42,189 bases of DNA from Candidatus Bipolaricaulis sp. (GTDB taxonomy: Bacteria; Bipolaricaulota; Bipolaricaulia; UBA7950; UBA9294): NCBI GenBank assembly GCA_028713635.1, contig JAQTNX010000005.1:1-42189 (forward strand), given 5' to 3'. A model generated the notes under the pieces. The model did not search any database. It worked only from the letters and a program-made list of their open reading frames with translations, and had not been told where the DNA came from. Each line of letters starts with the position of its first letter. Position 1 is the first letter of the stretch. The translations under genes were made by a program, and so were the position numbers. This document shows positions 15,305-42,189 of this stretch, in pieces.

Positions 15305-18300
15305 CTACTCCCCTTCGGGGTCGGGCGGCGTGTTGTCTCGGGACAGGAAGCGCGGGACGATCCGTCCGGACACCCCAAGAGGCAGGCGGTCGCCGGGTTT
15401 CGCGTCCGCCCACGCGGCTTGAGGTCCGACGCCTCTTGGGAGATTGACCAGGGCGATTGCGGTCCCCGCAGGAAGCGCTTCCGCGTCCCCGTCGACGAGG
15501 GCCAGGCCAACCTGACTCCCGCCGAGGCTCACCGAACTCGTGACTCGACCGAGGAGCGTGCCGTTCCGGTCGACCATGAGGGCGCCGTCGCGAATCGGCC
15601 GCGCGCTTTCGTCGACCTGGAAACGAACGACGGACCGCGTAGGCCGATCCAGATAGACCTGTCGGCACGCCGAGCGACCGACGAAGAAGGTCTTGTGGAG
15701 CTTGACGTAGGATCCAAAGCCGGCCTCGTAGGGGTTGACCTCATGAGGGCCGGCCAACTCGTGGCCGTACAGAGGGAGTCCTGCCTCAGTCCGGGTCGAG
15801 TCTCGCGACGCCAGTCCGCAGGGGAGAAGGCCGAGCGGGCGCCCGAGGTCGAGCAGCCGGCTCCAGAGCCAGGCCGCATCGGGGGCGGCGGAGTAGATCT
15901 CGTAGCCCACCGGCTCGCCGGTGTATCCCGTCCGCGCAACCAGGAGCTGATGTCCCTCCGGGACGACCTCGACGAACTGGGTGCGATCGAGCGTTGCCGT
16001 CGCGAGTCGCTCCTGCGGGCCGAGGACGAGGTCCAGGATGGCCCGGCTCTTCGGTCCCTGAATCGCTACGTCGACGACGCCGCGCTCCTTCTTCAGGTCA
16101 CGGATCGTCACGGGGGGGCAGGGAGAGCACGCAGGATTCTCTCGGTCTATGAGGTACGTCCCCTCGTTCACTCCGCAGAGCCAATCCCAATCCTTCTGCT
16201 CGTTGGCGGCGTTGACAACCACGAGGAATCGGTTCCGTGCCCGACGGTACACCATGATGTCGTCGATGACTCGTCCGTCGAGGTCGAAGAGATAGGCGTA
16301 CTGCGACTGCCCGTTCTCCAACCACCCGGCGTAGTTGGACGTGACCGCGTCGAGGAAGTCGACGGCGCGATCGCCCTCGATCTGGAAGACGCCCATGTGC
16401 CCGAGGTCGAACAAGCCGGCGGCGCTTCGCACGGCGGCGTGCTCTTCGAGGGCGGACGTGTACCAGACCGGCATTTCCCACCCGGCGAACGGAACGAGCT
16501 TGGCCCCGAGGGCGACGTGGGCGTCGTAGAGCGGCGTCCTCCGAGGCGGTTCCTTGGCCGCGTTCCATCGAAACTCCGCGGGAGGCGCAGACGGAGTCGC
16601 CGGAGGCAGACGACGTTGAGCGACGAAGTACGGCTTACGAAGAGCGAACCGCTCCGGGTGCTTGGAGAACGCCTCGCGGATGTCGGCGCCGGCCGCATCT
16701 TCTGCCGCGGCGGACGGCTTCCACGCCTGGGCTGACTGGGGGAGGGCTCCCGGTGCAACCTCCTCGATCACGGCGGGGCCCTGGATCTTGCAAAGCACGT
16801 CCCGCAGGTCAAAGATCGCGTACCCGTCGGACAGCCCAGTCAGCCACTCCCGGACGGCGCGGGCGTTGGCTGCAGGTGTATAGAGGAGATAATCGTCGCG
16901 GCCGAGCGCGCCGACGATCACGTTCGAGATGGCATGCCCGTTCTCGTCGAATAGGTAGGCCGGGGCGGCTCCTCCGGGCGGCAGTGCAAAGACGTCGACG
17001 GTCATGCTCTCTTGAAGAAGCTCCCCGGCACGCCCGCCGCGCACGCGGGTCGCCGACCACCCGCCGTTCGTCGTCGGCCGCACATCCCTCGACGGGGCGA
17101 CCCCACGGGGATCGACGCGCCCGATGAGCTCGCGGACGTCGCGCTTTGCCGCCTCGAGCGCCGGGAGAAGGATCTTCCCGCGCGACGAGTCTCCGCGCAG
17201 TCCGCAGTAGGAGAACGGGCGAATCGCCTTCAGCACGTCGGCGATGATCCTGGCCAGATCGCGCATCTCCGCCTCACCCATCCCCCGTTGTGTCACCCAC
17301 GGCGTTCCGAGGCGGATTCCGTGGGCGTCGGCGGCGCTGTGATCTCCAGGGAGGGTGTTCTTGTTGCAGACGATTCCCGCCAGGTCAAGGATGCGCGATG
17401 CGATCTCACCCATCATGACGAACCTTGTGTCCCGCGGAAGGGGCCTCAGGTCGACGAGAAGCAGGTGGGTGTTGGTTCCCCCGTATGCGAGCGTGAGCCC
17501 GTTCGCGGCCAGCGCCTTCGCCAGGGCTTGTGCGTTCTCGACGATACGCCGCTGCAGTGCGGAGAACTCCGGTTGCTGAGCCAGCTTCAAGGCCACGGCA
17601 AGCGCGGCGAACTTGTTCACATGAGGGCCGCCCTGCTGCCCAGGGAAGATCGATGAATCCAGCTTCGCGGCGATCGCTGGGTCGGTCGACAGAAGGACTG
17701 CGCCGCGCCCGCCGCACAGCGTCTTGTGCGTCGTGAACGAAACGACGTGGGCATGGCCGATCGGGTTCGGATAGACGCCGCCCACGATGAGCCCGGCCGT
17801 GTGGGCAACGTCGGCAAGGAGGATCGCCCCGACGGAATCGGCGATCTCGCGGAACTTCGCCCAGTCCGCTTGCCACGGGTACGAGGTGAATCCGCCGATG
17901 ATCATCCGCGGCCGATGCTTCTCCGCGAGGTCGCGGATCTGGTCGTAGTCCAACCTTCCTGTTGTCGGATCGACGGCGTAGGAGACGATCCGGTAGCGGC
18001 GCCCGGTGATGTTGAACTCGGATCCATGCGTGAGGTGGCCGCCCTCGGTGAGCGCCATACCCATGACCGTCTCGCCGGGCGTGACGAAGGCCTCGTAGAC
18101 CGCCAGATTGGCGGCGGCGCCGGAAAGCGCCTGGACGTTGGCGTAGATGCGATCGGCGGGAATGTCGGGCGTCGCAAAGCACTCGGCGGCCCGCCGAGCG
18201 GCGAGCGACTCGACGAGGTCAGCGATCTCGACACCCTTGTAGAAGCGGCGGTCGGCGTACCGGCGGAAGTTCGCGAGCTGCACGTCGAGGTCAGCGAGCT

Positions 18301-18517
18301 GCTCGACGGTCTGCCTCATCATGGCCCTGCGGGGATATCCCTCGGCGTACACGCTCGTGAGCACCGAGCCAAGGGCCTCACGAACGGGAGTGGGCGTCCA
18401 CGACTCCGACGGGATGAGAATGAGCTTCTCTCGCTGTCGACGTTCTTCGGCGGCGATGAGGGCCGCCGTCTGAGCGTCCACGTCGAGAATGCGTTGATTG
18501 GATTGAGACAGAGTCAT
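15305..18517 (-). CDS. glyA-gcvT: Fused serine hydroxymethyltransferase - glycine cleavage T-protein (SHMT-GcvT), with extra half GcvT-like domain
   Basis: One 1070-residue frame joins two folate enzymes. Residues 1-470 are PLP-dependent SHMT: IPSESW, YAEGYP, ADVAHTAGL and the Schiff-base lysine in FTTHKTL (Lys265). They carry an extra stretch of about 28 residues after YAEGYP, before RFYKGVEIADLVE. Residues 661-1055 are a full aminomethyltransferase GcvT (FAGWEMPVWY, FDLGHMGVFQIEGDRAVDFL, VVVNAANEQKDWDWL, GYTGEPVGYEIY). Between them, about 495-590 (LLQESMTVDVFALPPGG, DDYLLYTPAANARAVREWL, CKIQGPAV) resembles a degenerate GcvT N-terminal half. SHMT interconverts Ser/THF and Gly/CH2-THF; GcvT makes CH2-THF from the aminomethyl group on the H-protein. 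ATG 18517 has AAGGAG and overlaps the upstream gene by ATGA. No gcvH or gcvP is in the window. Confidence 0.93.
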   Translation of the reverse strand: MTLSQSNQRILDVDAQTAALIAAEERRQREKLILIPSESWTPTPVREALGSVLTSVYAEGYPRRAMMRQTVEQLADLDVQLANFRRYADRRFYKGVEIADLVESLAARRAAECFATPDIPADRIYANVQALSGAAANLAVYEAFVTPGETVMGMALTEGGHLTHGSEFNITGRRYRIVSYAVDPTTGRLDYDQIRDLAEKHRPRMIIGGFTSYPWQADWAKFREIADSVGAILLADVAHTAGLIVGGVYPNPIGHAHVVSFTTHKTLCGGRGAVLLSTDPAIAAKLDSSIFPGQQGGPHVNKFAALAVALKLAQQPEFSALQRRIVENAQALAKALAANGLTLAYGGTNTHLLLVDLRPLPRDTRFVMMGEIASRILDLAGIVCNKNTLPGDHSAADAHGIRLGTPWVTQRGMGEAEMRDLARIIADVLKAIRPFSYCGLRGDSSRGKILLPALEAAKRDVRELIGRVDPRGVAPSRDVRPTTNGGWSATRVRGGRAGELLQESMTVDVFALPPGGAAPAYLFDENGHAISNVIVGALGRDDYLLYTPAANARAVREWLTGLSDGYAIFDLRDVLCKIQGPAVIEEVAPGALPQSAQAWKPSAAAEDAAGADIREAFSKHPERFALRKPYFVAQRRLPPATPSAPPAEFRWNAAKEPPRRTPLYDAHVALGAKLVPFAGWEMPVWYTSALEEHAAVRSAAGLFDLGHMGVFQIEGDRAVDFLDAVTSNYAGWLENGQSQYAYLFDLDGRVIDDIMVYRRARNRFLVVVNAANEQKDWDWLCGVNEGTYLIDRENPACSPCPPVTIRDLKKERGVVDVAIQGPKSRAILDLVLGPQERLATATLDRTQFVEVVPEGHQLLVARTGYTGEPVGYEIYSAAPDAAWLWSRLLDLGRPLGLLPCGLASRDSTRTEAGLPLYGHELAGPHEVNPYEAGFGSYVKLHKTFFVGRSACRQVYLDRPTRSVVRFQVDESARPIRDGALMVDRNGTLLGRVTSSVSLGGSQVGLALVDGDAEALPAGTAIALVNLPRGVGPQAAWADAKPGDRLPLGVSGRIVPRFLSRDNTPPDPEGE

Positions 18518-24093: not shown

Positions 24094-24161
24094 ATGTCAT
24101 CGGCGGCGGGACTACCCGTCAAGGAACTCTGGATCAATGCGGAGCCAAGGAGGAGACGACC

Positions 24162-24302
24162 ATGAAGTGGGGCGGATTCAACAAGAACGGCGAGGAGAGG
24201 ATGAAGAGGCTGTTTGGCAGCAAGGTAGCGTACTACATGCTGGCGATCGCGACGCTTGGGGTCTTGCTAGGCGCGAGCGTGAAGTGGCACGGCGGGACCT
24301 AG
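24162..24302 (+). CDS. Small one-helix peptide, array copy 1
   Basis: The product is 46 residues, with AAGGAGGAG upstream. It begins MKWGGFNKNG, has a basic stretch (RMKRLFGSK) and one hydrophobic helix (VAYYMLAIATLGVLLGA), and ends SVKWHGGT; the final GT is unique to this copy. The layout is a signal peptide or single membrane anchor with a short polar tail. It belongs to four tandem homologues (24162-24780). Real coding is supported by conserved protein sequence, good ribosome binding sites and the same stop position after KWHG in the other three. Function unknown. Confidence 0.85.
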   Translation: MKWGGFNKNGEERMKRLFGSKVAYYMLAIATLGVLLGASVKWHGGT

Positions 24303-24324
24303 GACTGGGCTAAAGGAGCGAAGC

Positions 24325-24459
24325 ATGAAGTGGTGTGGGTACACGGGCAAAGGAGCTGAGAAGATGACGAAGCTGTTTAGCAGCAAGGCGGCGTACTACC
24401 TGTTGGCGATCGCGACGCTTGGGCTGTTGCTCGGCGCGAGCGTGAAGTGGCACGGCTAG
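24325..24459 (+). CDS. Small one-helix peptide, array copy 2
   Basis: The product is 44 residues with AAAGGAG upstream: MKWCGYTGKGAEKMTKLFSS, then a KAAYYLLAIATLGLLLGA helix, ending SVKWHG. It is nearly identical to copy 3, differing at Lys/Arg9, Thr/Ala15 and Leu/Val34, and starts 163 bp after copy 1. Cys4 is shared only by copies 2 and 3. A membrane-anchored or exported peptide is likely; no database family is known to me. Confidence 0.87.
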   Translation: MKWCGYTGKGAEKMTKLFSSKAAYYLLAIATLGLLLGASVKWHG

Positions 24460-24484
24460 AAGCGGGACGGGGAAGGAACGAGCG

Positions 24485-24619
24485 ATGAAATGGTGCGGGT
24501 ACACGGGCAGAGGAGCGGAGAAGATGGCGAAGCTGTTTAGCAGCAAGGCGGCGTACTACCTGTTGGCAATCGCGACGCTTGGGGTCCTGCTAGGCGCGAG
24601 CGTGAAGTGGCACGGCTAG
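24485..24619 (+). CDS. Small one-helix peptide, array copy 3
   Basis: The product is 44 residues, with AAGGAACGAGCG before ATG. It begins MKWCGYTGRGAEKMAKLFSS and ends in the shared helix plus SVKWHG. It starts exactly 160 bp after copy 2, and the DNA between them is almost a perfect repeat, pointing to recent duplication. Confidence 0.87.
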   Translation: MKWCGYTGRGAEKMAKLFSSKAAYYLLAIATLGVLLGASVKWHG

Positions 24620-24645
24620 AGAGAAGATTGGGGAGGAGGTATGCG

Positions 24646-24780
24646 ATGAGGTGGGGTGGCTACACGGGAGGAGGCATGCGGGTGCTTGCGAGGTTCTTCG
24701 GGCTGAGGACCTTCTACGGACTCCTTCCCATTGCGATGCTCGGGCTCCTGCTTAGCGCGAGCGTCAAGTGGCACGGCTAG
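24646..24780 (+). CDS. Small one-helix peptide, array copy 4 (divergent)
   Basis: The product is 44 residues with GGGAGGAGG upstream. It begins MRWGGYTGGGMRVLARFFGL, followed by RTFYGLLPIAMLGLLLSA and SVKWHG. The middle has diverged from the other copies, while the M(K/R)W(G/C)GY start and the C-terminal SVKWHG are retained. That indicates selection on both ends rather than mere repeat copying. The membrane HD-GYP gene follows after about 98 bp. Confidence 0.86.
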   Translation: MRWGGYTGGGMRVLARFFGLRTFYGLLPIAMLGLLLSASVKWHG

Positions 24781-24878: not shown

Positions 24879-26171
24879 GTGACTCTTCCGGCTCGAACGA
24901 AAGCTTACATAGTTGTCATTGGGCTAATGGCGCTAGCCGCCATGGCCTTTTACCTGAGGGACTTCGGATTCCTCTCCGCCCAGAGAACTCTCGCTTTCGC
25001 TCTTTTCCTGGTCCTTGGGCTCCTCTCCGAGATATACGCTGTCTGGATCCCGGCGTACGGTAGCGAGGTCTCAAGCAGCATGGCCATCTACATGGCTTCG
25101 CTGTTCATCCTCGGGCCATCGTCGACGGTGGCCATGGTCTTTGTCACGACTCTTGCCTCTGAAGTCCTGATGCGCTGGGACAAGTTCCGTGCAAACCCAC
25201 ACCGAGTGACCTACGTCTTGGTGTTCAACATAGGCCAGCTCGTCGTGTCCGTTGCCGTAGCGGGAATCCTGTTCTTTCCGTCAGGCAACGCGGCGTTTCC
25301 GCTCGCCTCGGGCGCGGACTACCTGTGGGCAATGCTTGCGTTCGTCTGCTACGCCACTGTGAACTTGGCTCTCGTCACTGGCGTTGTTTCGATGACCGAA
25401 CGGCAGAGGTTCCTCTATCGGTTTCTTTCCTACGCTCGCGACTTCAGTGTGCAGTACCTGGTCCTCGGAGTCCTCGCGCTGCTACTGGCCGTGCTCTACC
25501 TGCAATCCGTCTGGCACATGCTGCTGGCAATCGTGCCCCTGTTCTTGGTACACCTCTCCTTCCGAAGCTACCAGCGCCTGAGAACGGAGGCGCGCAAGAC
25601 CTTCGAAACGATCTCTCGGCTCTTGGACGAGCGGGACCACTACACGGCGGTTCACTCGGGAGACGTTGCGGAACTCGCGGTGCAGATCGCCGAGAAGATC
25701 GGGCTCTCGGAAACGGAGGTCGAGCAAGTCGAGATCGCGGCTCGAGTTCACGATATCGGCAAAGTGGCCGTGCCCGACTCGATCCTGCTAAAACCAGGGC
25801 CGCTCAACGACGAAGAGTGGGAAGTTATGAGGAAACATCCGGAGGTGAGTGCCGAGCTGATCGAGGGCCTCGAAATCTACAAGAAGGTGGCGGGTGCCGT
25901 GCGCCACGAGCACGAACGTTGGGACGGGAGCGGGTATCCGGACGGGCTCGTCGGCGAGCAGATCCCGCTCATCTCGCGGGTCATCGCTGCGGCGGACATC
26001 TACAACGCCTTGGTTACCGATCGGCCGTACCGCCCGGCGTTCTCCCGCGAGGAGACTCTGCAGATGATCGAGGAGATGCGGGGCAAGGACCTCGATCCCG
26101 CGGTGGCCGATGCGCTGCTCGAGGTCCTACGCAAGGCGAACATCGAGTCCGCGGGACCCATCGCGGCCTAG
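24879..26171 (+). CDS. Membrane HD-GYP domain protein (probable cyclic-di-GMP phosphodiesterase/sensor)
   Basis: The product is 430 residues from GTG 24879. Residues 8-228 form about seven membrane helices, an integral-membrane sensor of MASE-like appearance with no large extracellular domain. A linker helix (residues 230-250) leads to the HD-GYP domain. Metal and signature residues are intact: HYTAVHSGDV, RVHDIGK (HD at 291-292), MRKHPEVS, HEHERWDGSGYPDGL (GYP at 352-354), and ISRVIAAADIYNALVTDRPYR. HD-GYP enzymes hydrolyse c-di-GMP and sometimes cGAMP. The peptide array lies immediately upstream on the same strand and a DUF5317 protein follows after 10 bp, so the sensor may respond to the peptides. 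A weak -10 (TAGAAT, 24835-24840) precedes it. Confidence 0.9.
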   Translation: MTLPARTKAYIVVIGLMALAAMAFYLRDFGFLSAQRTLAFALFLVLGLLSEIYAVWIPAYGSEVSSSMAIYMASLFILGPSSTVAMVFVTTLASEVLMRWDKFRANPHRVTYVLVFNIGQLVVSVAVAGILFFPSGNAAFPLASGADYLWAMLAFVCYATVNLALVTGVVSMTERQRFLYRFLSYARDFSVQYLVLGVLALLLAVLYLQSVWHMLLAIVPLFLVHLSFRSYQRLRTEARKTFETISRLLDERDHYTAVHSGDVAELAVQIAEKIGLSETEVEQVEIAARVHDIGKVAVPDSILLKPGPLNDEEWEVMRKHPEVSAELIEGLEIYKKVAGAVRHEHERWDGSGYPDGLVGEQIPLISRVIAAADIYNALVTDRPYRPAFSREETLQMIEEMRGKDLDPAVADALLEVLRKANIESAGPIAA

Positions 26172-26181
26172 GCGCTGACGG

Positions 26182-26733
26182 ATGATCTTCCTCTACGCGC
26201 TCGGCGTGGGAATCCTGCTCGGGTACATGTCGCGAGGACGACTTCGCAAGCTTCCGTCTCTTCCCTTTCGAGCCTTGTGGCTGATCCCGATTGCTCTCCT
26301 TATCCAGCTCCTCATCTTCCCGCTCTTCTCCGACCGCCCCCTGGTTGCCCTTGCCACGCCCGAGCTGCACGTCTTCTCCTACGCCATCCTCTTCCTTTGC
26401 CTTCTCCTGATCCTGTCCGTCCGCCCGGTGTGTGCGATCGGAGTCGGCGCGCTGTTCAACGCGGTCGTCGTCCTTGCGAACGCCGGGTACATGCCCTCTT
26501 CGACGACGGCGCTGGAGCGAGCGGGGCTGGGCTCCGTCGTTGCAGCCCTGCTCGTCGACGGGACCTACGGCAACGTTGTCCTGATGGGAGGAGGCTCGCG
26601 CCTCAACGTCCTCGGCGATTGGCTCTTCCTGCCGTCGTGGATTCCGGGCGCGACAGCGTTTAGCATCGGGGATCTCCTGATCATGGTGGGCCTCGTCTGG
26701 CTCGTGGTGAAGGGAATGAGAGGGAATGGGTAG
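26182..26733 (+). CDS. DUF5317 family membrane protein
   Basis: This 183-residue integral membrane protein has about six helices (MIFLYALGVGILLGYMSRGR, LWLIPIALLIQLLIFPLF, LHVFSYAILFLCLLLILSV, AIGVGALFNAVVVLANAGYM, the re-entrant NVLGDWLFLPSWIPG, FSIGDLLIMVGLVWLVV). The NAGYMPSS and LGDWL...F motifs are those of DUF5317. Function is unknown; relatives often sit beside HD-domain signalling genes. It begins 10 bp after the HD-GYP gene and overlaps the next gene by 8 bp. Confidence 0.85.
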   Translation: MIFLYALGVGILLGYMSRGRLRKLPSLPFRALWLIPIALLIQLLIFPLFSDRPLVALATPELHVFSYAILFLCLLLILSVRPVCAIGVGALFNAVVVLANAGYMPSSTTALERAGLGSVVAALLVDGTYGNVVLMGGGSRLNVLGDWLFLPSWIPGATAFSIGDLLIMVGLVWLVVKGMRGNG

Positions 26734-33654: not shown

Positions 33655-34179
33655 TCAGATCCCTTGATGCTGAGCGGCTTGCCACGCGGCCGCTTCGGCG
33701 GAGCACACGTGCTTCACCTTAACACCGTGCCGAGCGAGCACGTCCTCGTGTTCCCACCAATCTGCATCCACGGCATTAAGCACCTGCGGCCTGGCGTCGC
33801 AGGCTCGCGAGATGGCCACGTACACCTGGTCGCTTCGGTCAAACCTACGAAGGTCATCATCATCGGGCACTTCTTCGAAGCGCCGCCACCCACCGCCACT
33901 CAAGAGCGTCACCTCGACCTGTTCACAGTGCGATGGATTCCATCTGTTGTCGTGGACCCACTTCATGAACGCGTCACCGACGCCGTGCTGTCCACTGAGC
34001 GAGAGCCGCTTGCGGTACTCGCCAAACGCGATGTCCGTCTCGTCAAGCGCAAGGCGGCTGCGCCCTTGGGTAATCCGCCATAGGGCTTGGCGACACGCAT
34101 CTTCGCATACGCAGGACGCTTGGGGTGCTCCGCCATTCGCAGTCACCGCGACGTTGGTGTCAACAACGACTGTTCGCAT
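33655..34179 (-). CDS. PIN-like domain nuclease
   Basis: The product is 174 residues. The N-terminal VVVDTNVAVTANGG (Asp7) is the PIN strand-1 motif. Further candidate metal-binding acids are in LALDETDIAFGEY (Asp46, Glu47), RRFDRSDQVYVAIS (Asp114, Asp117) and VLNAVDADWWEHE (Asp138, Asp140). PIN domains are Mg2+-dependent RNases, often toxins or effectors. No VapB-type antitoxin is adjacent. Instead, its first 37 nt overlap the 3' end of the AAA ATPase gene, suggesting an ATPase-controlled effector. Confidence 0.8.
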   Translation of the reverse strand: MRTVVVDTNVAVTANGGAPQASCVCEDACRQALWRITQGRSRLALDETDIAFGEYRKRLSLSGQHGVGDAFMKWVHDNRWNPSHCEQVEVTLLSGGGWRRFEEVPDDDDLRRFDRSDQVYVAISRACDARPQVLNAVDADWWEHEDVLARHGVKVKHVCSAEAAAWQAAQHQGI

Positions 34180-35528
34180 GAGTGATTGACCTTTCGGCGG
34201 CGACGTCCTGCAGCCTTGCTCATCTCCGCAATCTCTCCCATCTCGTCGCCGAAGAAGTCCCTCGGCCAGTTACTGATGGACCCATAGAGATCCAGGTTGA
34301 GAGGCTCGGCTACCGATTCGCCGTTCACCATTTTGCAGAAGTACAGGCTAGTGTCGGAAGCTGCGAAACGTCCTTCTGCGATTCGCCGCTGAATACGCCG
34401 CAACAGATACTCGCTGTGGCTCTCGACTATGATCTGCACCTGCCGCTTCTTTATCGCGTCGACGAGGACGTCGGCCAGCCCCATTTGAACGGCCGGGTGA
34501 AGGTGGATTTCCGGCTGCTCCAGAATGATAGTCGAGCCTCGCGGTGCGTAGTAGCAGAGCACGATCACTGGCAGGATCTGAGAGACGCCAAAGCCCACAT
34601 CCGTGATCAGCACACGCGCGGCCTCCTTCGATGTGGATATGGAAACGCGGTAGAGACTCGTGTCTTTAGCGATTTCCTCGACGTGGAAAGCCGTGGCAAG
34701 CCCGAGGGTCCCAAACCAACGGGCAACGACCTCTTCTAGCGTCAGTCCTCCCCAACCTGGTTCCTTCGCGCCAACCCGCGATGCGATGAGGGCCTCGACC
34801 GCCCGCTCGCCGTTCTTGCCCACATCGGATGGTCGGGTCCCAGTCCACGCATACTCACGGTGCGGATAGTCGCGCAACGGGCCGAGGTAGTAGAGGCGAG
34901 CGAGCTCCTGCTCGAACTCAAGCGTCAGGTCAGCAAGGAACCCAGCATTCTGCCAACCAGCCCTTACCTGGTCTGGGAAGCCGTAGCACTTCACGGGCGC
35001 CGGGATCCGGCTGAACGGGCGGCCTTGGCTCTTGACGAACGCAAACTTGCGTGGTCCTGTGGCTTTGATCTCGTACCCTGTCCGCCCTCCTCTCTCCATT
35101 GAGAAGCGGAAATCCTGAAACTGGTACGCCATCTCCGCAACCTCGGCCGTGCCGTTGTCTACCTGAATGCGGGTCTCGAACCGCATATCCGTGCCGGAGA
35201 GCCAGATCCTACTGCGATCCTCCGGAGCTCTGATACTGAGCGGCTTTGCGCGGCGCCAAGAGAACTGGATCGAAAGCTCAGCGGACTGTGGACGCCGGCA
35301 CAAGATGTCTTTCCACCCACCGATGTCAACAACGACGTGCTTGCTCCCCAGATCCAGCACCGCTGCACGATCCGCCGACTCGGCCGTCTGCTTGAGCAAC
35401 AGAGGAAGCTGGACTAGTCCCGTCTTCCCCGAGCTGTTGCTGCCGAAGAAACCCGTGAGTTTCCCGAAACGGAGCTCGCGGGTATCTGCCCAGCTCTTGA
35501 AGCCTCTTATGCGGAGAGATGTAATCAC
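34143..35528 (-). CDS. AAA (ABC/SMC-like) ATPase, DUF3696-type, partner of the PIN protein
   Basis: The product is 461 residues. It begins ITSLRIRGFKSWADTRELRF, then Walker A GSNSSGKT (29-36). The ABC-type C-terminal half shows a GFGVSQILPVIVLCY signature-like segment, Walker B with EQPEIHLHP, and the H-loop ESHSEYLLRRIQRRI; DUF3696-like sequence follows. These RecF/OLD-like ATPases sense DNA or phage factors and gate nucleases. It starts 57 bp after the DUF1156 methylase stop, and its end overlaps the PIN gene. Confidence 0.87.
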   Translation of the reverse strand: MITSLRIRGFKSWADTRELRFGKLTGFFGSNSSGKTGLVQLPLLLKQTAESADRAAVLDLGSKHVVVDIGGWKDILCRRPQSAELSIQFSWRRAKPLSIRAPEDRSRIWLSGTDMRFETRIQVDNGTAEVAEMAYQFQDFRFSMERGGRTGYEIKATGPRKFAFVKSQGRPFSRIPAPVKCYGFPDQVRAGWQNAGFLADLTLEFEQELARLYYLGPLRDYPHREYAWTGTRPSDVGKNGERAVEALIASRVGAKEPGWGGLTLEEVVARWFGTLGLATAFHVEEIAKDTSLYRVSISTSKEAARVLITDVGFGVSQILPVIVLCYYAPRGSTIILEQPEIHLHPAVQMGLADVLVDAIKKRQVQIIVESHSEYLLRRIQRRIAEGRFAASDTSLYFCKMVNGESVAEPLNLDLYGSISNWPRDFFGDEMGEIAEMSKAAGRRRRKVNHSCEQSLLTPTSR

Positions 35529-35585: not shown

Positions 35586-38504
35586 CTATTGGAATCCAAG
35601 TTCTCGCTCCTCGGCGACTGGTACCTCTCGAGTAAGACGAAGGATCTCGGGCCAGCTCTGGACGAGGCCGTTGTACGAGAGCGCTTCCGGTGCCCGCTTC
35701 TTGCGCTCGCATTGGGTGTAGAGGCGATAGGCAAGCTCGCGGGCAACCTCAGCTTTCGATCCTAACTTCTGGACAAGCTCAGCTGCAGCACCTTCGCCGC
35801 CGGTTTCGAGAACACGAATGAGTTGATGCACGGTCTCCCAGATGGTCAGCCGCTTGTCGGTACTCGGGTCCCAGGTTGTGTCGAGGTCGGCCGGACGAAG
35901 AAGGCGCACCTTGCCGCTCTTGGATGCAAGGACGCCATCCTGGACCATCCCGGCGATGCTCGTGTTCTTTGCCTTCGAAAGCGTCTCGGCAACGCCAAAC
36001 TCGCCCTCGTCGAAGCCCGACTGCTCGAACCACGCAAGCGCCCAGCGCGTGTCGGCGTCGAAGTCCCCTTCCTGTTCGGCCAGGGCCTCGTCGAGGGTTT
36101 GGTTGATGAGTGCGAGCGCATCGCGCACGGAGACGGGCCCTCCCGAAGCGTCTACCACCTTGGCGTAGCGGGTGTAGATCGCCATTCCGGGACCGATGGC
36201 AGCCTGTGCGAGGTCCACAGGGGCTATGTTGCCCCGTTGGAGTAGCTTGAGCGCCGCGGGCAGCTCCGCCTTGAGAGCGGCCGAGAACTCGCGGCGCGTG
36301 GCGACGGGAGAGTCGGTCGCACGCGGACGGCAGACAAGGATGATGCTTGAGGCCAGCGCATTCGAGTCCATGCTGCGCTTCCGCGTGGCCAGTTCAGTTC
36401 GCATCGGCCAGGTCCCACTGACCGAAAACCCAGCATGGATCACGGCGTCAAGGAAGGTCTCCCACCCGGTGCTGACAGTCCCGGCCTTGCCGTCGCTTTC
36501 CGACTGTTTGAACGCGTAGAAGATGCTGACTGGGAAAGCTGGGTGCGCCTGCTCGGCGATCCGGTGCATCGCTTCCGTCATTCCGTCAAGGAAGAATGCC
36601 TCCGCGCCTGCCTTTCCGTCCTTGTGACGATAGGCGAAGGCGACCAGTTCCTCGGCTTTGGGCACGGCAACCGTGGCGAAGAGGTCCGGGTAGACTGACC
36701 GCAACGAGCGCCGCAGCCAGACGTAGAAGAAGTCGGACAGGTCGGCGTAGGGAACGTTGTCGTAGTAGGGCGGATCTGTGGAGACGATGCGGTCTACGCT
36801 GAGTGACTGGCTTCTTGCGTCTTGTTGTTTGGCGCTGCCCTGGACTGCGGTCATCGGGTTCCCTAGAGCCTCGCATAGCGAGGCTACCGTGCCGTAGATG
36901 TCACCGCCAGCACCGGCAAAAGGATTCGTCTCGACATAGTCCCATGTCATCTGCAGCGCTTGTCTGCCAAACGTCCCGCGAAGCCGATCCATCAGACTCT
37001 CCCAGACACACAGGGCACTGTTGCGATCTACAGCCTTGCTGACTGCGAATCCGAGGTACACAGCCACGGCTTCAGCGTAAGCAGCGGCGCCGGCCCCGCC
37101 TTCGCTGAGGGGGCCGCCGTTGTCGGAGAGTCCCGCAATGGTGGCATCGCGGCGAGCCAACTTGGCTCCCTCCGTGACCAAGTCAGAGAATGTCGTCAGG
37201 GCGACGAGTTGGCGATCAGTGAAGAGCTGGTCGAAGTGCTCCATGCCGTAGGGTTTCACTCCGAGGTATTGTGTGCTGCCTGAGATCAGCACATCTGGTC
37301 GCCAATTGGGCGGGGCACTTAGCGCCGCACTCTCATGCTCCGACGACGGCGCAAGGTAGACACGTCCTCGGTCGCCCTCCGCCACGATCGCCATCAGACG
37401 CGCGCCCATACGCCCAGCCTTGCCCTCGGCCTTGATGTAGTCGCCAGAGATGGGCGTGCCGGACATCAGGCAAACGAAACTCGCTCGCGCGAGCTTGGTG
37501 CCGTTCTTCGCCCTCTCCGCATCCTTCGGCTTCCCCACCTTCACGGTGAAGCGATAGCCGCTGCTCTCGATCACCGGCTCGATGTAGACCTCCCTGTCTG
37601 CCTTTGTCGAGAGCATGAAGCTTGAGACGAGAGGCACATCCACTAGGGCAAAAGCCGGGTTCGGGCTCTTCACCGTACGCGCCCAGAGCCAGGCAATCAC
37701 CTTAAGTCCCTGGCCGACGTAGGGCTTGAGATCAGGCCGCCCCTTCGCCATCTCGGCCGTGATCTCGATCTTCGGATACAGGTGGCCGATCCGCTTCTCG
37801 GCCTCATCGCGCATCCATTTCCCGTAGTAGCGCACATCCTCAGCAAGGCCACGTGCACCCGCCCACGGCGTGAGCGTCTTCGTCCCGGCGGCCTTCTTCT
37901 GCCACTCAGGATTGACTGGCGGGCGGCCCGCGAACTTAGGAGGGATCTCAATCATCGCCTTGCAGATGAGAACAGCCACCGGGTTAAGGTCGCTCGCGAA
38001 GGCTTCGAGCCCAAGTCGCTGCGCTTCGAGCGGAAGCGATCCTCCCCCGGCGAACGGATCGTGGAATGCCGGGAGCTTGTCCCGGTTGAAGAGCTCCTTA
38101 GCGCGGGGATGACCGGCGTTCTCCGCGCAGGCGCGTCGCCAGCTCGCGCGGATCTCGGCCCGTGCCCGCTCGAGGACCTCCTCGTTCGTCGTGTTCTCCC
38201 ACTTCACCAGGTCCTCGATGATGCGGAAGAGGCGCTGGCGCTCCTGTTCCTGCTTCTTCTCTGTCGGGAAGAGATCGGGATAGCTTGAGGGATCGTCGAC
38301 CATCTGGGCAAAGATGACCGCCCTTGCCGCCGCCAACGGGCGACGTGCCCACCAGAGGTGGAGCGTCGAAGGATGCCCGTGGCGAATCGACTTCTCCCGC
38401 GCCGACGCCACGTTGATCGCATCCAGCGGCAGCGCGACTTCGATCAGCTTCTTGCGTATCGGCGTCGCCGCGCCTTTGGCTCTTTCGTCAGCGTTATCTG
38501 TCAT
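35586..38504 (-). CDS. DUF1156 DNA methyltransferase (COG1743), defence cassette
   Basis: The product is 972 residues from ATG 38504; another Met lies 8 codons upstream without a ribosome binding site. The N-terminal DUF1156 block ([34 protein letters not shown]) is at about 21-61. The SAM-binding motif DPFAGGGS is at 149-156 with SDLNPVAV, and the catalytic [10 protein letters not shown] is at 577-586, the order of an amino (N6-adenine-type) methylase. COG1743 members usually have a Cys4 zinc ribbon between these motifs. Here the first pair reads SPNPAF and the second CLMSG, so the ribbon is lost. It presumably marks host DNA for the neighbouring ATPase, helicase and nuclease genes. Confidence 0.88.
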
Positions 38505-39039
38505 AGGACGTCCGTTCCCCTCGCACATTCACACCGCTATGGCTCAAGCCCTTGGCTCACTGTGGCTCACCGCACCCATTCTCCACCATAGCGCGGCTCC
38601 CGCGAGCGGCGATCCCGCACCGTGCGCCCGCGCTCCTGCCGATCGCCGTGCTATCTGGTTGCCCATCGATAGATACATGCTCGGCGTCGATGGATCATCG
38701 ATAGATCTGCGCCCCGTCTGGGAGCACATGGCCGAAGCACTCGGGGCGCTTCCAGACTGCGAAGGCACATCCCAGCAACGACATGATGGTTGAGCCACTG
38801 TTCTTCTCCGTCGCACTCCAGAGACTCCTGTCGAGCTGCACTAGCGCAAGCCGCTTCCTCTTGCCCCGCGATCGGTCGATTCCAGCCGTGCGTCGGTCGA
38901 TTGTCGGTCGATTGCGTGCCATTGCGTCCAGATTGCATCTTGCCCACTTCGCTTTCCTGCCATCTTCTTCGCTAGCTATGGCCATTCCGCGTTTTCGCCC
39001 ACCCTACCCATTACGTTGACATTGCGTCCCGATTGCAGC
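38505..39039. repeat. 535-bp intergenic region with short phased direct repeats
   Basis: I see no credible gene here. TCGGTCGATT occurs at about 38871, 38893 and 38904, so spaced 22 and 11 bp. ATTGCGTCC(A/C)GATTGCA occurs at 38921-38937 and 39021-39037, exactly 100 bp apart, with another ATTGCGT at 38911. CATCGATAGAT occurs at 38664-38674 and 38697-38707, 33 bp apart. Spacing near multiples of the helical turn suggests a protein-binding control region upstream of the DUF1156 gene. Confidence 0.55.
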
Positions 39040-40698
39040 TCAGGATCCACTACGAGGAGTGCCGTCGGCTCCCCCGGAGCCCGGGAACCACCGGCCAGCG
39101 CGAGTCTTGCCACGGACATGGATCTTCCCCTCTTCTTTCAGCTCTCGAAGAAGCGTCTGCACCTGCGCGTAGGAGAGCTTCTCGAGCACGCCGCGGAGAT
39201 CGCCCAGAGGGCTCCCTTCACGTGCGTTCTCCTCGATGTGCTGGATCAGCAGGGCCTTGTTCGCATTGCGGTCGAGCCCCTTCCTCCGCGTGTACTCCCC
39301 TCTCCGCCCGACCATCCGGTAGTAGCGGCGGGACAGAATGTATCGAGTGCCCCGGCCTCGACTGACCCGTTCGAGAGCACCCTCCGCAGCCAGGATGCTC
39401 AGGCGAGGGCGAAGAACATCCGGCACCAGCGCCTCTCTGCTCACTAGATCGAGCACCAAAAGGTCCTGTATGCCGAGGGGCGATTCTCGATCTGCAACAA
39501 ACCCCTGGAGATACTCGACGAACTGCGGGTCACGGATCTGGCCGTCGAGGCTCAGCGCAACCTGATGCTCATCGGTCCCTGTGAAGTCAGGGAGCAGCTT
39601 TCCTTCCTGAATGCAGGAGGCGTAGATTCGGTCAGCTCCCTGCCCCGAACGCTCGACAAGCCCGCACCGGGCAAGCGCCTCGGCGATTCGCCGGTTCCGG
39701 GGATGCTGGTGCCAGAGGATGTTGTCGGCGGTGATCCCAGCGGGAAAACCACCGGGGCTCACGATTTCGAGCCGCTGCGGATACTGGCGCACGAATACCG
39801 ATCCGCCAAGGCGGTAGTCCCTGTGACTGATCGCGTTCAGGAGCGCTTCGCGGACGGCTCCTTCACTGAACGTGGGCACGTCCTCCATGAAGAGCCCGCG
39901 TCGGATCTGCTGGACTTCATTCCGCGAGTTGATGAGCTGCCAGATCTCATCCAGGAACAGCAGGGCGCCTGCCCGATACTCCTTCCTCTGGGAGTACTCG
40001 ATTGTCCCCTCTCGGCTTCTGTACTCGAAGATGGTCTCGGCGTTGGGCAGCAGTCGCCCCAGCGACCGATGTCTGCCTAGCAGCACCAAAGCTGCATACG
40101 TCACGCCCCCATCGACAAGCAGCTCTGCGTCCTCAAGCAGTTGACCTGCAGAGAGCTCCGCAATCCGTGCATTGCCTGACTTCCTTCGCCAGGCGGCGCG
40201 GAACCGCTCAACAGCTTCGGGCTCGAGATCAGACAGCGCCGCTCCGGGGCAGATGGTCGCGGAGTAGTCAGGAGTGGTCTCGCTGAAGATCCGGCGGAGC
40301 ATGTCCTCCGACATCGCAACCAGTTCCTCACCGCGACGCATGAGGTACTTCCCGCGATACGCTATCGGCAGGCCGATGGGACGCGGCGGCACCTCAAACA
40401 CGACAACGCGTCCGCGCGGGTGGTCGAGTTCTGTCGCGTCAATCCGAAGGCGCAGGAGCTCCGTTAGCTTGGCCCGTGTGTGTACGATGTCCGGAAACGC
40501 GCGGCTGCCGACAACCTGCCGGGGAAGCGTGCGGCTGACGCCGAGGATCATCACGCCGCCACGCTCGTTCGCCAGCGCCGAGCAGTACTCCGCCAGGTCA
40601 TCGAAGCTGTAGCTGTTCTTGGCCTCCTTGAACTCCAGGTGCTCATCCTCTCTGCCGACCGCCATCCATGCCTTCAGCTGATCCAGGCTTGCGGTCAT
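39040..40698 (-). CDS. AlbA_2 (Schlafen-like) DNA-binding and HATPase_c_4 protein
   Basis: The product is 552 residues from ATG 40698 with GGAGGAA upstream. The N-terminal AlbA_2/Schlafen-type domain (EDEHLEFKEAKNSYSFDDLA, CSALANERGGVMILGV) is followed by a GHKL-like ATPase region (EGAVREALLNAISHRDYRLG, RLEIVSPGGFPAGITADNIL, RNRRIAEALARCGLVERSGQ) and C-terminal winged helices (LRPRLSILAAEGALERVSRG, LSYAQVQTLLRELKEEGKIH). This is the COG2865 architecture, putative transcriptional regulators often found in defence islands. Its start overlaps the helicase stop by ATGA. It may regulate the cassette. Confidence 0.87.
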   Translation of the reverse strand: MTASLDQLKAWMAVGREDEHLEFKEAKNSYSFDDLAEYCSALANERGGVMILGVSRTLPRQVVGSRAFPDIVHTRAKLTELLRLRIDATELDHPRGRVVVFEVPPRPIGLPIAYRGKYLMRRGEELVAMSEDMLRRIFSETTPDYSATICPGAALSDLEPEAVERFRAAWRRKSGNARIAELSAGQLLEDAELLVDGGVTYAALVLLGRHRSLGRLLPNAETIFEYRSREGTIEYSQRKEYRAGALLFLDEIWQLINSRNEVQQIRRGLFMEDVPTFSEGAVREALLNAISHRDYRLGGSVFVRQYPQRLEIVSPGGFPAGITADNILWHQHPRNRRIAEALARCGLVERSGQGADRIYASCIQEGKLLPDFTGTDEHQVALSLDGQIRDPQFVEYLQGFVADRESPLGIQDLLVLDLVSREALVPDVLRPRLSILAAEGALERVSRGRGTRYILSRRYYRMVGRRGEYTRRKGLDRNANKALLIQHIEENAREGSPLGDLRGVLEKLSYAQVQTLLRELKEEGKIHVRGKTRAGRWFPGSGGADGTPRSGS

Positions 40699-42189
40699 CG
40701 CGGTTCCTCCGCGCCCTCTAGCAGCTGCGCGAAGTTGTAGTTCAGACTCGTGACCTTGAAGTCCGGCTCACGATCGAACGGTCGCCACACGTAGCGGACC
40801 CTATGCCCGCCGTCTGGCAGGAACTCGACCAGGGCGAGAATGAAGTCGTCGGGCTTGTTGAGCGAGTAGAGGACCTCGTTCCTGGTCACGGTGACGGTTT
40901 CGGCGCCGGCGACGCGCCCCTTGACCTCGATGAAGCGGAGCTTCCCAGTGCCGGGGACGCGGCTCTCGATGTCATATCCCAGCCTCTCGAACTCCTTGTC
41001 AGTAGGCTCGAATCCGAGGCCGCGCTCCACGGCCATGACCGCTTCACGAGCCCTCGCCGCGGCCGCCTGGGTGTTGGCGCACATCCGCAGCTCCGGCGCC
41101 GGGGCTCCCTGCAGGACGCGAACGAGCCCGAGGGGGACGACGACGAAGCCGCCTAGGACGACGGGTGGAAGCGGCGCAATCTGGCGCTCGCGCTTGAGCT
41201 CATCCAGCCTCCGCTGAAGGCGTCCTTGGAGGACGTCGGCGCGCTTACGCGCCTCCCCCGAGTTCAGGCGCGCGTTGGGATGGCCGGCCTTCTCTTGGAG
41301 CTCAAGCTCGCCGGCTCGGTGATCCCAGTAGTTGATCTCCTTGACCAGACGGTCTCTCACCGCGGCTTCCGTCTTGTCGATGAGCTCCAGCTTCGCGTCC
41401 CGGACCTCCGCGAGGTGCTCGGGCACGACATGTTCCACGGCATACGCTTGCGCCTTGACCTCCAAGTCGCGCTGGATCCAAGAGCACGCGGGGTGTTGGA
41501 GGATGTCGTCCACCGAGGGCTCGTCCGGCAATAGGGGCCGATAGTCGAGATAGGGCGCGTAGTGCACATGGCCTGCCACGCCGTCCTTGCCGACCTCGAC
41601 GTACAGCACGCGCTTCGAGATGGTCCGCCGCTCGCCGGACCGCGTGAGGCTTGCGTCCTGAAGAGTATGTTCGAGGTAGAGGAGGACACGCGGCGTGGTT
41701 CCCAGATCGCCCTCGTCCACGAGCACGGATCCGCGACGTAGGAGGTCGCGGTCTCGTTCCAGCGTGAGATCGACTACGGCGTCGAGCAACGGATGCCCCG
41801 GGCAGACGAATGCTGCTAGGGGCTGGCCCTGCGGTGCGATCAGCTCCCGCTCGAATACGGCGCGCTCGTACCGCTGCAGAACGGGGTCACGTGCTCCGAT
41901 CAGGCGATCTCGGTCCCGAATGGGAGACGGCACGTGGGTGATCTCGTATCGACGCGGCTCGCGCAGCCGCACTTCTCCGCCGAATCGCCGGAACGCCTCA
42001 AGGAAGAAGGACTCTACATAGTGCGGCTGCAAGCGCCGCGCTTCCGCGCGTTCCATGTCCTCGCGGATCCGCTGGACTCGCGTCGTGTCCATGACGTCGC
42101 GCACGAGGCCTCGCTCATCAAGGAGATTCTGCAGGTGCTCTCGATCCACCGCGTCAGCCACAACCTTCGTAAGTCGGGCTCGGATGTCC
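40695..42189 (-). CDS. SNF2-type helicase C-terminal part with DUF3883 (partial, runs off the right edge)
   Basis: The frame stays open to the last base (reading ...DIRARLTKVVADAVD), so the N-terminus and helicase motors lie outside. About 498 residues are visible. A helical region (LQNLLDERGLVRDVM ... FVCPGHPLLDAVVDLTLERD, IQRDLEVKAQAYAVEHVVPE) resembles the tail of large defence SNF2/HepA-like helicases. A C-terminal DUF3883 domain follows (AVMAVERGLGFEPTDKEFER, YDIESRV...LRFIEVKGRV, NEVLYSLNKPDDFILALVEF), related to restriction-endonuclease folds with an EVK motif. It is the first visible gene of the minus-strand defence cassette. Confidence 0.85.
   Translation of the reverse strand, partial: DIRARLTKVVADAVDREHLQNLLDERGLVRDVMDTTRVQRIREDMERAEARRLQPHYVESFFLEAFRRFGGEVRLREPRRYEITHVPSPIRDRDRLIGARDPVLQRYERAVFERELIAPQGQPLAAFVCPGHPLLDAVVDLTLERDRDLLRRGSVLVDEGDLGTTPRVLLYLEHTLQDASLTRSGERRTISKRVLYVEVGKDGVAGHVHYAPYLDYRPLLPDEPSVDDILQHPACSWIQRDLEVKAQAYAVEHVVPEHLAEVRDAKLELIDKTEAAVRDRLVKEINYWDHRAGELELQEKAGHPNARLNSGEARKRADVLQGRLQRRLDELKRERQIAPLPPVVLGGFVVVPLGLVRVLQGAPAPELRMCANTQAAAARAREAVMAVERGLGFEPTDKEFERLGYDIESRVPGTGKLRFIEVKGRVAGAETVTVTRNEVLYSLNKPDDFILALVEFLPDGGHRVRYVWRPFDREPDFKVTSLNYNFAQLLEGAEEPR

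Follow-up and report, generated by a model that had tools for sequence, protein, structure and literature searches.

A phylum-wide family of one-helix peptides encoded next to a predicted membrane HD-GYP sensor in Bipolaricaulota

MgrB is a peptide of about 47 amino acids with one helix and an N-in/C-out orientation that is dedicated to a single membrane sensor, PhoQ. The peptides of the locus described here resemble it in that each is predicted to be a one-helix N-in/C-out peptide with one dedicated membrane sensor. No sequence relation was seen in family searches, however, and the array peptides are encoded in tandem and adjoin their sensor gene. In addition, PhoQ is a histidine kinase, whereas the sensor of the array is an HD-GYP phosphodiesterase. 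SHP/Rgg-type pheromones, short peptides cleaved from the C-terminal end of small hydrophobic precursors, share with the array a basic N-terminus, a hydrophobic stretch, a short conserved C-terminal tail and an adjoining receptor gene. Their receptor is a cytoplasmic regulator, while that of the array would be a membrane HD-GYP protein; neither processing nor import has been shown for the array peptides, and their KW pair is invariant through the whole phylum.

On the receptor side, the closest described families are MASE9 (PF20972) and HD-GYP (PF13487): HD_5 is matched by all 26 sensor proteins scanned and MASE9 by 12 of them. The sensor differs in that 56 of 57 homologues carry a glutamate where the HH pair has its first histidine, and the upstream peptide family is not described in the literature searched. 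The predicted fold of its membrane half resembles an ECF S-component (TmRibU), but here the domain is fused to a signalling enzyme and does not serve an ECF transporter module. S-components have a substrate pocket that is open to the outside. A small peptide with a dedicated membrane receptor is a known kind of system, and no precedent was found for the receptor type and output. By analogy, the peptides may work like MgrB-type regulators or like C-terminal-tail pheromones; membership of either group has not been shown.

The window, by which we mean the whole stretch of 42,189 nucleotides analysed, contains the following cluster.

24162..24302, + strand: peptide copy 1, 46 amino acids, MKWGGFNKNGEERMKRLFGSKVAYYMLAIATLGVLLGASVKWHGGT; SD aaggagg at 24147-24153
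24325..24459, + strand: peptide copy 2, 44 amino acids; SD aaaggag at 24312-24318
24485..24619, + strand: peptide copy 3, 44 amino acids; SD aagga at 24473-24477
24646..24780, + strand: peptide copy 4, 44 amino acids, middle diverged and both ends kept; SD ggaggagg at 24632-24639
24879..26171, + strand: membrane HD-GYP protein, 430 amino acids; residues 1 to about 235 membrane sensor, about 240-420 HD-GYP phosphodiesterase domain
26182..26733, + strand: DUF5317 membrane protein, 183 amino acids, usually third in the cluster

The four tandem reading frames of the original prediction are all present, each preceded by an SD-like site, and are separated by 22-26 nt. They follow the single peptide plan that had been proposed, with 20 invariant columns in the full-length alignment, including M1, W3, G5 and the whole A-S-V-K-W-H-G tail. 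Copy 4 is the most divergent in the middle (52-57% identity to copies 1 and 2), and its two ends are intact, as had been noted. The pairwise dN/dS values among the four copies are 0.11-0.53 (NG86; imprecise for such short sequences), so synonymous and nonsynonymous change are unequal and the selection at the protein level that had been inferred is purifying. The proposed SVKWHG ending needs a correction: this tail is common to all four copies, but copy 1 continues to KWHGGT and its motif is not at the extreme end. The original prediction gave no function and missed the near-obligate linkage to the membrane HD-GYP sensor that is discussed below.

Homologues, which had been expected in relatives if the array is real, are found throughout Bipolaricaulota. 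A first profile built from the four copies picked up relatives in 26 of the 33 genomes of the window's family, and an enlarged profile extended this across the phylum, to 68 of 100 genomes from 29 of 39 genera; the named relatives with the peptide are Candidatus Bipolaricaulota MAGs. The array is therefore not a chance occurrence. Members are mostly 36-51 amino acids long and consist of M[K/R]W, a basic stretch, one helix that contains conserved small residues (Gly/Ala), and [G/A/S][A/E/S]xxKW followed by 1-8 residues. The K-W pair lies near the C-terminus in 87 of 89 distinct members, and the residue after it varies widely. With a mean N-terminal charge of +3.9 and a best 17-residue hydropathy of 2.08, an N-in/C-out topology is predicted. 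An SD motif of at least 5 nt precedes 83 of 93 family starts, compared with 8% of the 13,178 ATGs in the same loci. The number of copies per locus ranges from one to five; these are lower bounds, as many MAG contigs break off inside the array or have masked stretches there. Taken together, the existence of the family and the selection on it are demonstrated.

Met14 was considered as an internal start, since the codons before it look SD-like in the window's family. It was rejected as the true start: this methionine is absent in many members and in most a strong SD site lies before MKW. Copies in three loci (L043, L061 and L064) lack MKW and may start internally.

The original prediction that no described family carries this signature is upheld within the libraries and literature searched. 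No family was found in Pfam, NCBIfam or PHROGs when 35 members were scanned, the best hits being at chance level and confined to one or two members, and nothing significant was obtained from the PDB. A reading as an RNA element was discarded since neither the window nor 15 related loci match Rfam at the gathering score. A phage origin was likewise rejected, no homologue being found in phages or viral contigs. A scan of genome contigs with narrow patterns, aimed at other phyla, confirmed only Bipolaricaulota. It should be kept in mind that a single phylum was searched in depth and that its genomes are mostly MAGs.

The peptide genes and the sensor gene are linked in both directions. In all readable loci except one rearranged contig, the gene for one membrane HD-GYP protein comes next after the peptide gene or genes, in the same orientation and usually about 100 nt further on, and DUF5317 is the usual next gene. 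The converse search, using the first 235 residues of the sensor, found it in 71 of 100 genomes, as a rule as one gene each. Where the N-terminus of the sensor gene is in hand, a peptide lies upstream on the same strand within 700 nt in 66 of 69 cases, at distances of 22-450 nt. These 69 genes are a mix of loci from the peptide search and from the sensor and DUF5317 searches, and the sensor search itself added no convincing case without a peptide. In two of the three exceptions, 92 and 28 nt separate the start of the gene from the end of the contig. The third, a remote paralogue, is the second such gene of genome G090, and upstream of it a 45-residue reading frame ending in SAANDKFCC looks like a diverged member of the family. 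Both peptide and sensor are present in 65 genomes. Nine have just one of the two, and contig ends, masked repeats or missed copies account for nearly all of these; two genomes scored as peptide-negative (G060 and G067) contain copies on inspection. The divergent rpsF-ssb-rpsR genes upstream are kept only in the window's family and some other groups, and the link between peptide and sensor thus outlasts general synteny.

In the rearranged contig (locus L153, G042:C26:5500-16489), one peptide copy has downstream of it a transposase-like frame in the opposite orientation and oligopeptide-permease-like genes, and a second copy lies about 7.9 kb further on, at the contig end. This sole instance of a copy not followed by the sensor reflects either a rearrangement or a misassembly.

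The C-terminal half of the predicted structure of the sensor protein (mean pLDDT 80) matches HD-GYP structures, in agreement with the HD_5 match of the window protein (E 6.9e-39). His259, His291, Asp292, Lys295, His320, His345 and Asp373, which are likely metal ligands, are invariant in all 57 loci, as is the GYP motif. The glutamate that replaces the first histidine of the HH pair is at position 344; codons 343-346 (25905-25916 of the window) read HEHE, compared with xHHE in typical HD-GYP enzymes. Because of this replacement phosphodiesterase activity is likely but not certain: the catalytic competence of the domain is a prediction, and hydrolysis of c-di-GMP or cGAMP is inferred. c-di-GMP signalling is present in the group, since 39 of 40 relatives encode GGDEF proteins; the window's own genome has ten matches.

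Residues 1 to about 235 are predicted to form a MASE9-like sensor with an S-component fold. The best MASE9 match among the members has an E-value of 8.2e-6, and the window protein itself has no match. In Foldseek the modelled membrane half matches the TmRibU structures 5kbw, 5kc0 and 5kc4 with a probability of 1.00 and a TM-score of 0.60-0.65 by target length, but the E-values of 0.026-0.064 are not significant. On the strength of this model an ECF S-component fold is probable. Asn117, Gln120, Asn162 and Ser65 are invariant or nearly invariant polar residues of this domain, and the peptide tail is predicted to project to the same, outer side as the opening of an S-component pocket. Plasmid matches to the sensor cover the catalytic half only (ten best records). 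No literature was found that links MASE9, or DUF5317 together with HD-GYP, to a peptide.

In most loci the sensor gene comes with one for DUF5317. The PDB contains nothing that matches the predicted structure of DUF5317 (pLDDT 85), which leaves a role as a processing enzyme undecided. The domain also occurs in the Thermotoga maritima and Thermus control genomes, and it has no match in plasmids.

The region before the sensor gene carries a further signal. Of 62 loci, 20 have a terminator-like hairpin after the last peptide gene and before the sensor, where shuffled sequences would give 0.9. The loci with a hairpin are mostly outside the window's family, and none is found between the peptides and the sensor in the window. 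By eye, L144, L157, L137, L142 and other loci have a TATAAT-like box after the hairpin, a few bases before the sensor start. Such a box suggests that the sensor has its own promoter, with sensor mRNAs that are nearly leaderless in these genomes. From the hairpins and boxes it follows that the peptides are probably an independent and possibly more abundant product.

The tails of the window copies differ by one synonymous base only, and the argument from tail invariance therefore rests on the family. In 16 of 17 reliably read multi-copy arrays, xxKWx is identical in all copies despite synonymous change at these codons; the exception (L041) has Arg or Ser at the last position, a difference of one residue. 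The helix before the tail has changed both synonymously and nonsynonymously within arrays. Over all same-contig pairs of the window's family, pN is 0.007 against a pS of 0.40 for the last six codons, compared with 0.090 and 0.34 for the helix. Apparent tail changes in L062, L151 and L153 were discarded as a decayed copy, a frame artefact and the rearranged contig, respectively. Between genomes the tail does differ (SVKWH, NIKWR, TLKWR, GFKWH, GDKWG, NHKWG and others). Invariance within a genome is what would be expected if a single partner common to all copies recognized their tails; this reading is an inference. Distances between peptides correlate more with those of the sensor domain than with those of the catalytic domain (partial r of 0.38 versus 0.25), although this is a weak test, and the correlation between tail and sensor distances is itself weak and not corrected for phylogeny.

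Position K-3 is mostly Ala and K-4 mostly Gly, Ala or Ser, and the (S/L)-G-A often seen ahead of xxKW would be compatible with cleavage by signal peptidase I. Release of the tail is not universal, since K-3 is Glu in 15 of 87 members, with A/S/T-E in place of G-A. What all members have in common may be the tethered form.

We propose that the peptides are a dedicated ligand or regulatory partner of the adjoining membrane sensor, the tail being read by the sensor domain to control cyclic-dinucleotide hydrolysis. This is the reading we lean towards, if only slightly; binding, the sign of the regulation and the tethered or released state are all inferred. The basic N-terminus would remain inside, the helix would cross the membrane and the short xxKWx tail would be exposed outside, where it could stay tethered to the helix or be clipped at the frequent (S/L)-G-A site. 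The S-component-like domain would then read the K-W tail and gate the cytoplasmic HD-GYP phosphodiesterase, and through it the level of c-di-GMP or a similar cyclic dinucleotide. The tandem arrangement would increase the dose of one identical tail. This proposal is limited by the lack of any data on physical interaction, expression or processing. A more specific version, in which a released Trp-Lys oligopeptide (here probably SVKWHG) serves as a phylum-wide peptide signal bound by an S-component-fold receptor fused to a cyclic-dinucleotide phosphodiesterase, without an intervening kinase or transcription factor, is speculative and we consider it rather unlikely.

What such a secreted-ligand model does not need is the MKW N-terminus, which is predicted to be cytoplasmic and is conserved nearly as strongly as the tail. 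An explanation modelled on MgrB-PhoQ or KdpF therefore stays alive: the peptide could be a constitutive accessory subunit, its helix packing on the membrane domain of the sensor to stabilize or restrain it, with a tail that has no signalling role and KW ends that anchor at the membrane surfaces. The single helix, its small Gly/Ala residues, the near-obligate partner gene and the KW conserved at both ends all fit this, and the Trp and Lys at the two helix ends could be mere interfacial anchors. The copies differ in the helix and N-terminus, yet share one identical tail, an indication that it is the tail that is recognized; moreover, the hairpins in 20 of 62 loci suggest separate and probably unequal expression, not a fixed stoichiometry. 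We regard a subunit role as unlikely on the present evidence, without dismissing it.

The same hairpins, together with a short conserved reading frame directly upstream of the sensor and a KW(H/R)P close to the stop codon that recalls arrest motifs, could also be taken as signs of a cis-acting leader, in which translation of the small frame controls the sensor gene by stalling or attenuation and the peptide product is unused. Such a leader calls for a single frame, a fixed C-terminal motif and a conserved RNA switch, a combination that these loci do not show, with one to five copies, each with its own SD site, a KW-to-stop distance that varies from 1 to 8 residues and a widely varying residue after KW. 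The hairpin is absent from many loci, the window among them, and the boxes seen by eye after some hairpins, like the independent peptide product deduced from them, count against control in cis. Purifying selection acts on a membrane-peptide design over its whole length, and we find this explanation improbable. Least credible of all is that the peptides are membrane-active toxins or antimicrobial peptides comparable to tandem type I toxins such as Ldr or Fst, in which case the HD-GYP operon would be a neighbour or would serve for protection. Tandem hydrophobic one-helix peptides of 30-50 amino acids do have the size and shape of type I toxins, but with 22-26 nt between copies an antisense antitoxin RNA for each of them would hardly fit. 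There is no Rfam match (unannotated antisense transcripts are not excluded), the peptides are absent from the phages and viral contigs searched, and they are deeply conserved with the same partner gene.

On the preferred reading, in which the sensor reads the tail, the peptides provide a dedicated partner, probably a ligand, for a class of membrane HD-GYP sensor without a known input. They also constitute a gene family that is conserved across a phylum with hardly any cultured members. From the predicted fold, signalling enzymes too may make use of ligand-binding folds of the S-component type. Should the tail prove to be the ligand, peptide control of c-di-GMP can be tested directly with a synthetic six-residue peptide.

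Elsewhere in the window, the following features were identified.

15305-18517, - strand: fusion of SHMT (serine hydroxymethyltransferase) and GCV_T (aminomethyltransferase), 1070 amino acids
30296-42161, - strand: Hma (helicase-methylase-ATPase) anti-phage system
30296-33706, - strand: HmaC
33655-34179 and 34143-35528, - strand: HEC-03A/HEC-03B candidate pair, between Hma genes
35586-38528, - strand: HmaB
39040-40698, - strand: Schlafen/AlbA_2 protein, between Hma genes
40695-42161, - strand: HmaA, C-terminal part (cut by the contig end)

Open frames of a length similar to that of the SHMT-GCV_T fusion are found at the same place in many relatives.
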